Origin: Candidatus Schekmanbacteria bacterium
Lineage (GTDB): Bacteria > CSSED10-310 > JACPHN01
Assembly (NCBI GenBank): GCA_016188575.1
Contig: JACPHN010000124.1
Coordinates: 53,908 to 117,907 of the forward strand
Reading direction: 5' to 3'
DNA length: 64,000 nucleotides
Part shown: one piece after another, positions 51,775-57,840 of the stretch
Layout of the letters: each line of letters opens with the position of its first letter
Numbering within the stretch: the stretch's first letter is position 1
Notes under the pieces: model-generated
Told to the model about the DNA's origin: nothing
What the model saw: the letters and a program-made list of their open reading frames with translations, nothing else
Database searches by the model: none
Position numbers and translations under genes: made by a program

Positions 51775-52211
51775 CTATTGGCCCAGGCCATCCGCCGAGC
51801 CAAACCACGTCTGTCCTCGGTCAGTGCTCTTGAGGATACCGTCGTGGCTCACCGCTGCGTAGATGACATCGGCGTCGGTCGCGTCTTGCATGACCTCGTG
51901 GACGGCCCTGTTCGTCGCCGTCAGTTTCTCGAACGTCACGCCATTATTGTCGCTGCGAAGGAGCGCGCCCGTTTGCTGATCGATGTCTTGGTGCCATTCA
52001 CCGTTGGCGACGAGGAGCTCGCTGCTATCCGATGTGAGCACTTCGAGGTCCCTCAGCCAAAGCCCGTCTCCGATGGGCGAGGAGTCGCTCCAGGTAGCGC
52101 CGGCATCTCGGGTCCGAAGGATCTGGGGGTCATCATGCGTGACGAAGAGCTCCGCGTTATCAGCGGGATTGACAGTAAGCGACGAGGCGTACCAGGTATC
52201 TCGGATCCTGC
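51775..52211 (-). pseudogene. Asp-box protein, C-terminal half (separated by a transposon)
   Basis: Codons from 52206 down to the stop at 51775 encode 143 residues beginning IRDTWYASSLTVNPADNAEL. Asp-box repeats are clear: ILRTRDAGATW, LLRSDNNGVTF and ILKSTDRGQTWF. The half has no start of its own. Joined to the N-terminal half (57836-58498), with the transposon and one CCTGC removed, it forms an intact 364-residue reading frame. The protein was a secreted beta-propeller of the sialidase/sortilin-like type. Confidence 0.8.
52207..52211. repeat. Target site duplication, left copy
   Basis: CCTGC directly precedes the TGT end of the transposon and is identical to the five bases after its right end. 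Confidence 0.85.
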
Positions 52212-52430
52212 TGTTACGACCCGCGTAGTCTCCGGTCTTTTAGTCGCATTCGTCCTGGCTTTTTCCCGTGAATTCAGGCGAGAGTCCCCGGCGTGAATTC
52301 GGGACGGGGGCGGTTGCTCGGAGCAAGCACAGGCTCGGGTTGCGCCGGCGGGGTCCACGTTGTTGAAAGAGCGGGGTGGAAGCGTCATCCTATATCGATT
52401 TCAAACTCAGAGTCGATGGAGGAAGACGCA

Positions 52431-53063
52431 ATGTCCGCACCCGCAGTGCCAGAGTATCTCAACGCCTCGTACAGCGGCAAGCCTTGCCAGCGAGGCGGCA
52501 CCCTGATCGCCGAGGACGTCTGGGACGTCGAGGAGCACGACCGGCGGCTGGCCACGTGCGATGACTACCGCCCCGAGCAATGCAGCCATGCCGGCGGTCG
52601 TCTGCACGGCCTCGGCTGTCGTTGGCGCGTCGCGCGGGACGAGGTCGGTTCCCCTGGCTTTTGGATTCGCCGCTACTTGTGCTCCGTCTGCGGTGCCGTA
52701 TGGCAGGTGCTTCCCGCTTTCCTCGCCCGGCATCTCCATCGACCCTGGAAGGCGATTCAGTCGCGACTGGAACAGGCCGGAGCGCTCTCTGCGGCCGCAG
52801 GGGCGGCGCCTCGACTGCGCCCCAAACCAAGCACGACCCGGCGGTGGCTCGCCCGCCTGTTGGCGACGGCGATCGTGCTTACCCAAGCGCTGTCCACAGG
52901 CGGAGCCGAGGTGGGCGCAGTCATCGCTCGCGCCGGCGCGGGGTGTTGCCGTGGGGACCTCGTCGAGGCGCTGGCCGCCGGCGGCCTGCTCGATTCCCAG
53001 CGCAAGCTGGCGCAGCTCGCCGCGTGGATCCACCGCCTCGTGCCGGGTGTTCGTCTCATGTAG
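52431..53063 (+). CDS. Zinc-ribbon protein (DUF6431-like) of the transposon
   Basis: A 210-residue protein starting at an ATG that follows GGAGGAAGACGCA. It resembles the DUF6431-type zinc-ribbon proteins found beside rve transposases and ExeA-like ATPases: EQCSHAGGRLHGLG at the first knuckle, RYLCSVCGAVWQVLPAFLARH at the second. Cysteines are C43, C51, C84 and C87; the first knuckle appears incomplete (Ala in place of a Cys). The C-terminal half has a helical region (TTRRWLARLLATAIVLTQAL). Likely binds the transposon ends or regulates the transposase. Confidence 0.6.
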   Translation: MSAPAVPEYLNASYSGKPCQRGGTLIAEDVWDVEEHDRRLATCDDYRPEQCSHAGGRLHGLGCRWRVARDEVGSPGFWIRRYLCSVCGAVWQVLPAFLARHLHRPWKAIQSRLEQAGALSAAAGAAPRLRPKPSTTRRWLARLLATAIVLTQALSTGGAEVGAVIARAGAGCCRGDLVEALAAGGLLDSQRKLAQLAAWIHRLVPGVRLM

Positions 53064-53218
53064 AGCCCGCGTGTCCGACCGCCCCGCCCGCCATCTTCTG
53101 CGCGGTCGCGCGCCCTACCACTTATGGCTTTGCCGCCGGCGTAGCTTGTCTCCTGCGGGGTCGGTCAGCGGCCCCACGGGACGGCAGGACCGATCCTGCC
53201 TGGTCGAAGGAGACGGTT

Positions 53219-54574
53219 ATGGACGAAGAGCATCGCGAAAAAGTTGCGCTCATTCGGGTGAGCGTGTTGGGGCCCTTGATCAGTGCTCGGCTGGAGCACG
53301 GAGACCGCGCGCGTTGGTTCCAGCAGGCCGCCGAAAAGACCTACGAGGGTCCGGACGGGCGTCCGCTGCGGGTTAGCCCGCGCACCATCGAGGATTGGTA
53401 CGGTGCGTGGCGGCGCGGCGGCCTGCAGGCGCTGAAGCCAAAAAAACGCGCCGACGCCGGCAACAGTCGGGTAATCGCGCCCGAGATCGGCGAGCTCATC
53501 CTACAGATGAAGCGGGAACGACCGCGGCGCTCGATCCGCCGCATTATCCGCATGCTGGAACGGGCGGACAAGGTCGCCGCCGGGCGGTTGAAAAAAAGCA
53601 GCGTTCACCGCTTCTTGCAGAGTCGCGGGCAGTCGGCTCGACCCCGGCGGGGCGACGACGAGCGGCGCGCCTATCGCCATCCTTTTGCGGGCGATCTGTG
53701 GTTCGGCGACGTCATGCACGGCCCCGTGGTCATTTCGCCCGCGGGGACGCGGCGCAAGAGCTATCTGCACCTGTTCATCGACTCCGCGACTCGCTTCGTC
53801 GTGGGGTGTGCCTTCCGCCTGGGCGAGACCGCAACGGATCTCGAGGCGGTGCTCAGGGAGGCCATCGCCAAGCATGGCCTGCCGCGCAGTCTGTACCAGG
53901 ACCGCGGCGCGGCCCAACAAGCGGATTCGTTGCGGGTGATCTGTGCCGAGCTCTCCATCCATTTTCTTCACTGTCGGGCCCGGGATCCGGCGGCAAAGGG
54001 GGGTGTGGAAAGAATTTTCCGCACCATCGATGACGAGGTGATCAATGAGCTCCCCGCCGAGCCCCTTCCCCTTGCCGAGCTCAATGGCCTGCTCTGGTCA
54101 TGGCTGTCGGTGGAGTATCACCGCCGAGTGCACAGCGGCACCGGGCAGATGCCTCTGGAGCACTGGCTCGGTCAGACCGCACAACTGCGCCCGGCGCCGC
54201 GGGGCGAGCGCCTGGACGAGGTATTCCTGCACCGCGAGCGGCGCCACGTGCGCAAGGACTCGACGATTCACTTCCAGGGCTCCGTGCTCGAGGTCCGCCC
54301 CGAGCTTTGCGGCCAGACGGTGGATCTGCGTTTCGACCCTCATCACCCCGAGCGCCTACCACGAGTATTCGTCGAGGGCCGCTTCTACTGCGACACTATC
54401 CCACTGGATGTGGTCCGCAATGCGAGCCGGCCGCAACGCCGGATCGAGATCGCTGTCGATGACGACCACGAGCGTATGCCGACCGGCATCGATCCGCTGC
54501 GACAAATCCAGGCGGAACACGATCGCCGCACCCGCTCGCCGCAACCGCAACGACCCATCGCAGAGGAGGAATAG
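53219..54574 (+). CDS. rve/DDE transposase of the transposon (TniA/IS481-like)
   Basis: A 451-residue transposase. An N-terminal helix-turn-helix (PRTIEDWYGAWRRGGLQALK) precedes the retroviral-integrase-fold core with Asp164 (WFGDVMHGP), Asp228 (LYQDRGAAQQAD) and Glu264 (AKGGVERIFRT), a DD35E triad. A C-terminal Mu-type barrel (FQGSVLEVRPELCGQTVDLR) follows. It cuts and joins the transposon ends. ATG 53219 follows GAAGGAGACGG; the longer upstream frame overlaps the zinc-ribbon gene and is rejected. It ends three bases before the ATPase gene. Confidence 0.9.
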   Translation: MDEEHREKVALIRVSVLGPLISARLEHGDRARWFQQAAEKTYEGPDGRPLRVSPRTIEDWYGAWRRGGLQALKPKKRADAGNSRVIAPEIGELILQMKRERPRRSIRRIIRMLERADKVAAGRLKKSSVHRFLQSRGQSARPRRGDDERRAYRHPFAGDLWFGDVMHGPVVISPAGTRRKSYLHLFIDSATRFVVGCAFRLGETATDLEAVLREAIAKHGLPRSLYQDRGAAQQADSLRVICAELSIHFLHCRARDPAAKGGVERIFRTIDDEVINELPAEPLPLAELNGLLWSWLSVEYHRRVHSGTGQMPLEHWLGQTAQLRPAPRGERLDEVFLHRERRHVRKDSTIHFQGSVLEVRPELCGQTVDLRFDPHHPERLPRVFVEGRFYCDTIPLDVVRNASRPQRRIEIAVDDDHERMPTGIDPLRQIQAEHDRRTRSPQPQRPIAEEE

Positions 54575-54577
54575 GCC

Positions 54578-55384
54578 ATGGAATATCTACAGCGTTTCGG
54601 TCTTGCCCACGACGTGTTTCCCCGCCACGCCCAGGGGCGCACCTTCTTTGTGACCCCGAGCTATGAAAGGCTCGAGCGGCGCTTCGCAATGCTGGCTCGA
54701 CAGCCAGGGATCGGGGTGCTGACCGGCGAGGTGGGGGTCGGCAAGACCGCGGCCATGCGCAATCTCGCGGCGGGACTTCCCCGTCCGGACTACCGCGTCA
54801 TCTACTTGTGCGACGCCCCCGCAGAAGCTGCGGACCTTCACCGCGAGCTCGCCGCCGAGCTCGGGCTACGCCCCGCCCACCGCAAGGTGCAACTCGGGCG
54901 CGACCTCAAAAACGCTCTCATCCAGATGGTGGACGAACAAGGGGTGCAGCCGGTGTTGATCCTGGACGACGCAGAACAGTTGCCGGACGCCGTCTTGACC
55001 GAGCTGTGCCGGCTGGCCAACGTCGCCATGGACAGCCGGACCGTCCTGGTATTGTGGCTCGTGGGACAGCCACGGCTGCTCAGAACGCTGCGGATGAAGC
55101 ACCATGCGGCGTTGGCGTCGCGGCTCGCCGCCCGCGTCGAGCTCGCGCCGATATCCGGACGCGGCGACTTCGAGGGCTTTGTGACCCATGGTCTCAAAGC
55201 CGCGGGCGCCACCACCAAGATCATCTCCGATCCGGCCGCGGAGCTGCTCTTCCGAGTCAGCCACGGGCTGCCTCGGGAGGCGGCGCGCCTGCTTCGGGAA
55301 GGGCTCATCCACGCCCATGAGCGGCAGTCCAGCATGCTCGACGAGATCATCCTGGAAGCGGTGCTCACCGCGGAGAAGCTCTGA
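54578..55384 (+). CDS. TniB/ExeA-like AAA ATPase of the transposon
   Basis: A 268-residue ATPase. Typical opening YLQRFGLAHDVFPRHAQG and FFVTPSYERLERRFAMLA, Walker A TGEVGVGKTAAM (residues 49-60), Walker B PVLILDDAEQL with Asp130-Asp131, sensor RTVLVLWLVGQPRL and the arginine region ALASRLAARVEL. Family members (TnsC, TniB, MuB, ExeA) load on DNA and activate the transposase and choose the target. Its stop overlaps the start of the primase-polymerase gene. Confidence 0.9.
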   Translation: MEYLQRFGLAHDVFPRHAQGRTFFVTPSYERLERRFAMLARQPGIGVLTGEVGVGKTAAMRNLAAGLPRPDYRVIYLCDAPAEAADLHRELAAELGLRPAHRKVQLGRDLKNALIQMVDEQGVQPVLILDDAEQLPDAVLTELCRLANVAMDSRTVLVLWLVGQPRLLRTLRMKHHAALASRLAARVELAPISGRGDFEGFVTHGLKAAGATTKIISDPAAELLFRVSHGLPREAARLLREGLIHAHERQSSMLDEIILEAVLTAEKL

Positions 55385-57609
55385 TGGAGGCGGTGCGCCC
55401 ACGGAGCATCGGCGCCGCGGCAGCCGCCAAGTCGTCTGCGCCGGTGCAGGCGGCGCTACAGGACTATGCCCATGGGGTCTACTCGATCCCCATCCCCGCT
55501 GGGCGCAAAGGTCCGCGACAAAAGCAGTGGCAGCACCTGCGACACCCACCCGACGAGCTTGCTCATGCCTTTTCGCCCCGTGCCAACCGCGGTCGACTGC
55601 TCGGCATTGCACCACCGGAAGGCATGGTGGGAGGCTTCGTGGTCTGCGTGGATCTCGACACGCCACTGGCGTTGGCGTTGGCCGCCCGCTGGTTGCCCGA
55701 AACCGGCGAGATCGGAGGTCGGGCGGCGGCACCCACGAGCCACTGGTTCTACGAGTCGTGTCCGCCACCCGATACCACGCGCTACACGGATCCGGACGGC
55801 ACGCGCCTGCTGGAAGCACTGAGCACCGGCACTCAGGTATTGGTGCCGCCAAGCATCCATCCTTCGGGGGAGTCCTACACCTGGGCGAGCTATGGTCATC
55901 GGCACCGCGTCGACGCCGGGGCCTTGCTGTCGTGCTGTAGCCGGCTGGCGGCGGCAACGCTGTTGGCGCGCCGGTGGCCGGAAAAAGGCTGCCGCCAGCA
56001 AGCGGCCCTGGCGGTGGCCGGGGCACTGCTCGAAAGTCAGTGGAGCCCACCGCAGGTCGAGCACCTGCTTCTCGGCGTGACCACCGCTGCCGGCGACGAG
56101 GAAACGAGCAAGCGAGTCCAAACCGTGGCCGCAACCCAGAAGCGTCGTCGCGCCGGTGGCACCGTCTGCGCCTGGCCCACCCTGGTGCGGATCTTCGGTG
56201 AGGCGGCAGTCGACCGCCTGCGGGCGTGGCTACATCTGCAGCCGGCACCACGGCGCGCGCCGACGCCTACCCCGGATCGCAATAAAGGCACGCCGGCGCT
56301 CTCCCGACACCATCCGCCCGCGCTCGGAGCGGCGGCGTATCACGGCCTGGCCGGCGACATCGTTGGCACCCTGGCGCCTCACACCGAAGCCGACCCCGCG
56401 GCCTTGCTCTTTCAATTCTTGACCGCCTTCGGCAATGCGGTCGGGCCTTTCCCCCACGTTGCCGTGGAGGCGACGCGTCACGGCACGACCTTGTTCTGTG
56501 TTCTGGTGGGAGCCTCCAGCAAGGCGCGGAAGGGCACGTCGTGGCAGCACATCCTGCGCCTGCTTCGCCTCGCCGGCACCGCTGCGGGTGGTGCCGATCA
56601 CCCTGCCAGTCTGGCGCGGTGGCTCGACGAGAACATCAAGGACGGTCTCAGCTCGGGAGAAGGTCTGATCTGGCATGTCCGCGATCCCCAGCGGCAGTGG
56701 CAGGCCGATCGCAAAGGCGGCGGCCGAGAGATCATCGTCGATCGCGGTATTGACGACAAGCGTCTTCTCATCCAGGCCAGCGAGCTGATCGCCGCGATCC
56801 GCTGCATGGCTCGCACTGGAAATACCCTGTCAGCGGTATTGCGTTGCGCCTGGGACTCGGGCGATCTGCGCATTCTCACCCGCAACCAACCGGTGACGGC
56901 CTCTGGAGCTCATATCAGTATCGTCGGGCACATCACCACCGAGGAGCTGCGCCGGGGCCTGGGAGACATCGAAGTGGCCAATGGCTTTGCCAACCGCTTC
57001 CTCTGGGTCTTCGTCCGCCGCTCCAAGCTTCTTCCGGACGGCGGCGCACTCGGGGACGAAGCGCTCATGCCGTTGGCCGAAGCGCTCCGTCAGGCGCTCG
57101 GGCAAGCCGCCATCCGCGGTCTCGTGCCGCGGGACGAGGCCGCCGCCGAGCTCTGGCGAACGGTCTATGGGGAGCTCTCCGCCGCCTGGCCGGGCATCGC
57201 GGGCAGCATCACCGGGCGTGCCGAAGCGCAGGTGGTGCGGCTCTCGCTGATCTACGCCTTGCTCGACGGCAGCGCGACCATTGGCCAGTGTCACCTCGAA
57301 GCCGCTCTGGAATGCTGGCGCTACGCGTCCGACTCGGTAGCGTTCATCTTCGGGGACGCCACCGGAGACCCCATCGCCGACACCATCCTCCAGGCGTTGA
57401 AGGCGGCACCAGACGGGCTCACCCGCACCCAGATGCACGACTTGTTCGGGCGACACCGCGACAGGGAGGCGATCGACAGGGCGCTCGCGGCGTTGCATGA
57501 GACCGGGTCGGTGAACGTTCAGCAACTGCCTACGGAGGGCCGGCCGCGGCAGGTGTGGTCGGCAACCCACACGGCCGCAGCGGCGCAGGACCTTTCTTCG
57601 CCGACCTGA
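55384..57609 (+). CDS. Primase-polymerase with DUF3987 domain, carried by the transposon
   Basis: A 741-residue protein. Residues 20-175 are an archaeo-eukaryotic primase-polymerase domain: YAHGVYSIPIPAGRKGP, VVCVDLDTP with D90 and D92, and TQVLVPPSIHPSGESYTW with His159, the residues that bind metal and nucleotide. Residues about 315-640 match DUF3987 (helicase-like fold): LFCVLVGASSKARKGTSWQH is a degenerate Walker A, followed by HISIVGHITTEELRRGL. A C-terminal winged helix ends it (DGLTRTQMHDLFGRHRDREA). In plasmids and phages such proteins prime replication. Here it is fused by ATGA overlap to the transposition ATPase, so it should act with transposition. Role is inferred. Confidence 0.85.
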   Translation: MEAVRPRSIGAAAAAKSSAPVQAALQDYAHGVYSIPIPAGRKGPRQKQWQHLRHPPDELAHAFSPRANRGRLLGIAPPEGMVGGFVVCVDLDTPLALALAARWLPETGEIGGRAAAPTSHWFYESCPPPDTTRYTDPDGTRLLEALSTGTQVLVPPSIHPSGESYTWASYGHRHRVDAGALLSCCSRLAAATLLARRWPEKGCRQQAALAVAGALLESQWSPPQVEHLLLGVTTAAGDEETSKRVQTVAATQKRRRAGGTVCAWPTLVRIFGEAAVDRLRAWLHLQPAPRRAPTPTPDRNKGTPALSRHHPPALGAAAYHGLAGDIVGTLAPHTEADPAALLFQFLTAFGNAVGPFPHVAVEATRHGTTLFCVLVGASSKARKGTSWQHILRLLRLAGTAAGGADHPASLARWLDENIKDGLSSGEGLIWHVRDPQRQWQADRKGGGREIIVDRGIDDKRLLIQASELIAAIRCMARTGNTLSAVLRCAWDSGDLRILTRNQPVTASGAHISIVGHITTEELRRGLGDIEVANGFANRFLWVFVRRSKLLPDGGALGDEALMPLAEALRQALGQAAIRGLVPRDEAAAELWRTVYGELSAAWPGIAGSITGRAEAQVVRLSLIYALLDGSATIGQCHLEAALECWRYASDSVAFIFGDATGDPIADTILQALKAAPDGLTRTQMHDLFGRHRDREAIDRALAALHETGSVNVQQLPTEGRPRQVWSATHTAAAAQDLSSPT

Positions 57610-57676
57610 GCACCGGCTGAGGCCCAGGTCGAGCTTTCTTCGCTTTATCCCCTTCTTTCTCGCCTATCCTCGCCGG

Positions 57677-57835
57677 TGTAACAGCTCCCACCCCGCACCC
57701 GACAGCGCCGGGTGCGGGCTCACCTCGGCCCAAAGCCATCCCCTCGCGAAGCAAACCCGACTCGGCACCATCGCGCCGGGCGAGCTACTCACCAAATTCC
57801 GGAACAACAACACGGGGTCAAAGCGGGCTGTTACA
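57677..57835. repeat. Inverted-repeat structure at the transposon right end
   Basis: TGTAACAGCTCCC at 57677-57689 is an inverted copy of the transposon terminus TGTAACAGCCCGC (read leftward from 57835). A perfect hairpin CCCGCACCC/GGGTGCGGG (57692-57718) lies just inside. The 159-bp segment looks like an independent MITE or an internal transposase-binding site. The 57610-57676 stretch before it is non-coding. Confidence 0.6.
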
Positions 57836-57840
57836 CCTGC
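57836..57840. repeat. Target site duplication, right copy
   Basis: CCTGC follows the ACA end of the transposon and matches 52207-52211. In the split gene it belongs to the codons AGC AGG (minus strand). Confidence 0.85.

Follow-up and report, generated by a model that had tools for sequence, protein, structure and literature searches.

At positions 52212-57835, the window analysed here (a stretch of 64,000 nucleotides from Candidatus Schekmanbacteria bacterium) contains a transposon of 5,624 bp with TGT...ACA ends. The tips form imperfect inverted repeats, with starts TGTTACG and TGTAACA; the left end reads TGTTACGACCCGCGTAGTCTCCGG from 52212 and the right end, read inward, TGTAACAGCCCGCTTTGACC, ending at 57835. 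The terminal inverted repeats are TGTTACGACCCGCGTAGTCTCCG (52212..52234, plus strand) and TGTAACAGCCCGCTTTGACCCCG, read inward (57813..57835, minus strand). Identical copies of CCTGC lie on either side, at 52207..52211 and 57836..57840, and no other of the 1,952 pairs of positions tried around the genes, all with identical 5-mers just outside, attained the inverted-repeat score of this CCTGC-flanked pair. Removal of the element together with one CCTGC copy gives a single continuous minus-strand ORF, encoding a secreted BNR/sialidase-like repeat protein, and therefore the insertion into this gene was a clean one. Moreover, three other places in this genome, with unrelated flanks, show the left boundary at precisely TGTTACGACCCGC, a reversed control pattern giving 0 matches, and the right end of a relic on another contig (C11) lies no more than 1 bp from the same place. 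An earlier note on this DNA had described TGT...ACA inverted ends with CCTGC on both sides, and the ends, the duplication and the restored host ORF all bear this out. The copy in the window is a recently inserted and apparently intact transposon.

The element is filled by four genes, all on the plus strand. The first (52431..53063) encodes a zinc-ribbon/HTH protein of 210 aa with a DUF6431 domain (Pfam PF20020, E=4.9e-6) that scores 26.7 bits, just over the cut-off, and occupies the same position in relatives. The second (53219..54574) encodes a DDE transposase of 451 aa with HTH_32, rve and Mu-transpos_C domains. Its catalytic residues are D164, D228 and E264, and the spacing of 35 residues between the last two agrees with the DD35E assignment made previously. 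The best named model for this protein is IS481, at 161.6 bits against a curated cut-off of 224 bits (NCBIfam NF033577), far above TnsB with its 43 bits. The third gene (54578..55384) encodes an ExeA/MuB-like AAA+ ATPase of 268 aa with Walker A (GEVGVGKT) and Walker B (LILDD) motifs, which matches AAA_22 (E=5.8e-23), MuB in the PDB (E=1.2e-5) and phrog_296, a DNA transposition protein; it reaches only 14.8 bits with TnsC and has no TniB match in Pfam. GC3 is even over all four genes (0.78-0.82). The genes had been described as tightly packed in one direction, which holds for the common strand and for an overlap between the third and fourth genes but not for the zinc-ribbon and transposase genes, which are 155 nt apart.

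The fourth gene (55384..57609) encodes a protein of 741 aa comprising a primase-polymerase (PrimPol) domain (Prim-Pol PF09250, E=3.3e-11), an MCM-like AAA+ helicase and a C-terminal winged helix. Its ATG shares its A with the stop codon TGA of the ATPase gene (TGATG), and this 1-nt overlap is the stop/start lock to the ATPase gene that the earlier note had reported. AEP motifs I-III are present (DLD90-92, SH and E) and align with those of plasmid pATHE01 and of Microbacterium phage Hendrix gp91, the PrimPol half being 31% identical to the main large protein of pATHE01, a plasmid of 8.3 kb. The gene had previously been labelled PrimPol-DUF3987. The Prim-Pol part of that label stands, whereas DUF3987 is called by Pfam only on relatives of the helicase half and not on the window protein. 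An AlphaFold model covering the protein without its N-terminal 182 residues has pLDDT >90 across most of residues 310-730 and matches MCM folds (E 3e-7, prob 1.00); judged by fold only, this half is predicted to be a hexameric-helicase-type domain of the MCM AAA+ fold. The PrimPol protein matched no defence system in PADLOC.

Both ends carry further repeats. On the left, two copies of a direct repeat, CGTGAATTC[A/G]GG, are found 25 bp apart (52267..52303, plus strand) and recur in the left-end copies on contigs C164 and C212; these are possible transposase sites. On the right, an internal inverted copy of the tip, TGTAACAGC (57677..57685, plus strand), pairs with 57827-57835 and is partly kept in C11. 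The 9-bp tip and this internal copy (TGTAACAGC...GCTGTTACA) bound 159 bp, with a perfect 10-bp hairpin, CCCGCACCCG-ACAGCGC-CGGGTGCGGG (57692..57718, plus strand), between them; most of the internal copy and of the hairpin survives in the C11 relic. Folded as single-strand DNA the right end is not unusual (z -1.3). A search of the element for a convincing replication origin in the form of an iteron array gave only two or three weak repeats and the one hairpin.

Sister copies of the element occur elsewhere in the same genome. A relic on C198, 96% identical, retains pieces of the zinc-ribbon, transposase and ATPase genes followed by 35 bp of the PrimPol start, and in the C11 relic (86%) the last PrimPol codons are joined to the right end. 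A PrimPol fragment on C69 is 95% identical, further PrimPol pieces are present on C56 and C29, and C212, C164 and C233 retain left ends only. Diverged PrimPol genes, 50-59% identical in parts, are found on C140 and C165. The C140 helicase half is 54% identical at the amino-acid level, is open over 225 codons and gives a dN/dS of about 0.36 against the window copy, a substitution pattern indicating purifying selection; neither an ATPase nor a transposase is left near it. The C165 copy is broken, its start (2-507 of the locus) being interrupted by an insertion of ~70 bp and by stop codons, and a repeat, GGGCGCGATTTATCGCGCCC, that adjoins this broken start also follows the left end on C164. An ATPase end was hoped for 5' of the C165 gene, and the trace found just upstream is short and weak (hmmsearch, 2.8 bits), a hint only of a former ATPase. 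Enclosed by the ends and overlapping the ATPase gene, the PrimPol gene moved with this insertion. It is not a one-off: at least two degraded sister copies in this genome had the gene as well. All PrimPol-bearing copies found come from this one genome, a fragmented assembly of 275 contigs. The view of the locus as an entire DDE/AAA+ transposon that makes 5-bp duplications and carries along a PrimPol-helicase in the same operon is supported.

Relatives of the transposase are widespread, with matches in 226 plasmid records (57 of them covering at least 80% of the query) and in 36 of 195 genomes of one phylum. In 17 annotated plasmid regions the order is DUF6431 (or an HTH or other small gene), transposase and ATPase, with a small ORF or nothing related after them. 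No PrimPol was found by local tblastn in ~40 loci with the transposase-ATPase pair, some of these contigs stopping soon after the ATPase and thus being weaker evidence; the pair in these relatives is 27-53% identical to that of the window. The zinc-ribbon, transposase and AAA genes follow each other on a single strand in the element as in this DUF6431/IS481-like/AAA family, of which Paraburkholderia (locus L013), Cupriavidus pBB2 (L116) and genome G435 (L140) provide examples with TGTTACG/TGTTGCG-type ends, and the nearest family transposases are 40-53% identical to that of the window. However, these transposons are only 3.2-3.6 kb long and lack a PrimPol, many having a small ORF of 65-86 aa, or nothing, past the ATPase. 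L013 is a complete element of 3,391 bp with TGTTACGTCGCG ends and the duplication ACAGG. The closest complete relative, L140, spans 3,622 bp with TGTTGCGTCCCG ends and the duplication GCTGG, its transposase and ATPase being 47% and 51% identical to those of the window. TGTTACGNCNCG-like ends with a 5-bp duplication are common to the window, L013 and L140, and similar ends occur in L014, L116 and L170. The PrimPol had been proposed as the fourth core gene of the transposon, with the occurrence of the same ends without it named in advance as evidence to the contrary. Such elements exist, and the ~40 relatives without PrimPol, complete ones with 5-bp duplications among them, rule out core status at the level of the family. 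Since complete relatives lack the gene, the family moves without it and transposition as such does not require it.

Several relatives have other extra genes. In proteobacterial relatives the ORF of a small protein of ~74-84 aa starts before the ATPase gene has ended (L013 7093-7329, L015 7100-7324, L129 4407-4661), and the protein carries the motif LSDEAAxxIQxLLxDxLLWF; it belongs to no Pfam family (L013 and L015 scanned) and by eye has no evident likeness to PrimPol. On a Streptomyces chartreusis plasmid (L016, 4276-9130) a transposon relative, whose ends were not found, adjoins an OrfB/TnpB-like gene with a Cas12f1-like TNB domain. In a close relative present in two species of one genus (L168 in G537 and L169 in G535), an IS21-like pair is inserted between the transposase and ATPase genes, the transposase being ~52% identical to that of the window.

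The helicase half of the fourth protein has a wider distribution of its own. More than 60 relatives, 27-53% identical, were recovered from bacterial genomes and viral contigs, and in the loci inspected they often adjoin excisionase-like HTH genes and tyrosine integrases; the elements that hold them are phage-like or integrase-borne, and fusions to TOPRIM or NrS-1-like primases also occur among them. Three such loci (L044, L057 and L112) combine the MCM-like DUF3987 helicase with a CHC2/TOPRIM, an NrS-1-like and a TOPRIM primase, and commonly have a tyrosine integrase and an excisionase-like HTH gene close by. The DUF3987 helicase with its varied primases near an integrase is a modular replication cassette. 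A match in Nonomuraea proved to be a stand-alone DUF3987-like gene beside phage-like genes. The consecutive order of transposase, ATPase and PrimPol, which the earlier note had suggested seeking in other genomes, was not recovered: no PrimPol relative stands beside a window-type transposase in 63 loci of the genome and viral collections, nor in the same-phylum genomes searched, in 386 sampled genomes, in plasmids or in phages. Therefore, the window gene is best seen as a replication protein of phage or integrative-element type that the transposon acquired in this host lineage.

The classification as TniA/Tn7-like holds in part. With Tn7 and Tn5053 (TnsABC-TniQ, TniABQ) the element shares a Mu/TnsB-type DD35E transposase with rve and Mu-transpos_C domains, an AAA+ partner, TGT...ACA ends and a 5-bp duplication. 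However, searches of its four genes gave no match to TniQ/TnsD, TnsA nuclease or a resolvase, IS481 scores far above TnsB (43 bits, with TnsC at 15 bits), and neither Tn7 nor Tn5053 has the PrimPol of the window. Plasmid and phage PrimPol-helicases (the pATHE01 protein, Hendrix gp91 and DUF3987 proteins) share the PrimPol motifs and the following helical region, and the DUF3987 relatives have an MCM-like AAA+ helicase as in the window protein, but in the loci seen they reside in plasmids, phages and tyrosine-integrase elements and never beside a window-type transposase. SCCmec is a cassette moved by serine recombinases and not a DDE transposon. Its CCPol-MP-Cch2 operon likewise equips a mobile element residing in the chromosome with a primase and a helicase, the primase being A-family polymerase-based (PMC7581432). 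Casposons and self-synthesising transposons are likewise transposon-like elements with replication enzymes (PMC6563490), but these are described as relying on a casposase of the Cas1 type or on a DNA polymerase of family B; the window element has neither, and no family-B DNA polymerase domain was detected in it. The earlier note knew of no described element of this composition, in agreement with the open-access literature, the extent of our search, in which we found no equivalent transposon and met DUF6431 in an unrelated context only. The best reading is that the element is a lineage-specific variant of a known, widespread transposon family, new in carrying a PrimPol-helicase.

How this composition arose and what the fourth gene does can be read in several ways. 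We give an even chance to the account in which a widespread DUF6431/IS481-Mu-type/ExeA-MuB transposon gained a phage- or plasmid-type PrimPol-helicase as the last gene of its operon, where it probably starts replication of the element. In its favour are the clean insertion, the domains and operon layout, the even GC3, the sister relics, the constrained C140 helicase half and the MCM-like fold with relatives in phage-like and integrase-borne elements; against it stand the ~40 relatives without the gene, the confinement of PrimPol-bearing copies to one fragmented assembly, the lack of a convincing origin and the near absence of transposon genes beside the C140 and C165 copies. Because the relatives manage without the gene, the main rival is that it is a passive passenger: a phage, satellite or plasmid would have supplied a replication gene that was caught in the interval from the ATPase gene to the right end and takes no part in transposing the element. 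We doubt this somewhat but take it seriously: the family mobilises without a PrimPol, the helicase half is common in integrase-borne elements, and one relative adjoins a different extra gene, the TnpB-like OrfB. Yet the overlap of the PrimPol and ATPase genes is scarless, the gene was kept by several copies, and the diverged helicase half looks constrained. A transposon-replicon hybrid, in which the PrimPol-helicase would be a plasmid-type initiator that replicates an excised circle before the transposase reinserts it, seems improbable to us. It draws on the likeness of the PrimPol half to the main large protein of pATHE01, on PrimPol-helicase fusions being known replication proteins of mobile elements (PMC6563490) and on the primase-helicase module carried by SCCmec (PMC7581432), but clear iterons are absent from the element. 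As for a misjoining of PrimPol and transposon genes during assembly, the 275 contigs might invite the suspicion; the exact restoration of the host gene around the whole element and the repetition of both junctions in independent relics rule it out, leaving it next to no credence.

On the account of a gained replication gene, the transposase would join the 3' ends of the element to a target chosen by the ATPase and so produce the 5-bp duplications, as is established in Mu/Tn7-type systems. In Mu-type transposition the forked intermediate requires replication, which in known cases is carried out by the host restart machinery. The element encodes neither a TnsA-like nuclease for the second strand nor a resolvase, and the product would therefore probably be either a circle or a forked strand-transfer intermediate (cointegrate); for Tn7-like elements without TnsA, cointegrates are predicted that are resolved in trans or by RecA (PMC8649781). 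The primase-helicase would most likely load on the element DNA of this intermediate and start its replication, thereby replacing or supplementing host PriA/DnaB loading, and relatives without PrimPol would depend on the host for replication. That PrimPol helps to copy the element is plausible, though as yet unproven. The stronger proposal, that an IS-like transposon supplies its own primase and replicative helicase to the strand-transfer intermediate and self-replicates without the host restart primosome, would amount to replication-autonomous DDE transposition; we put this forward tentatively and think it rather unlikely.

If the PrimPol does act in copying, the replication step of transposition could be tested within one small piece of DNA, and the line between insertion sequence and replicon would be blurred. 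Should the gene prove to be cargo and no more, the element would still illustrate the exchange of replication genes among phages, integrative elements and transposons.
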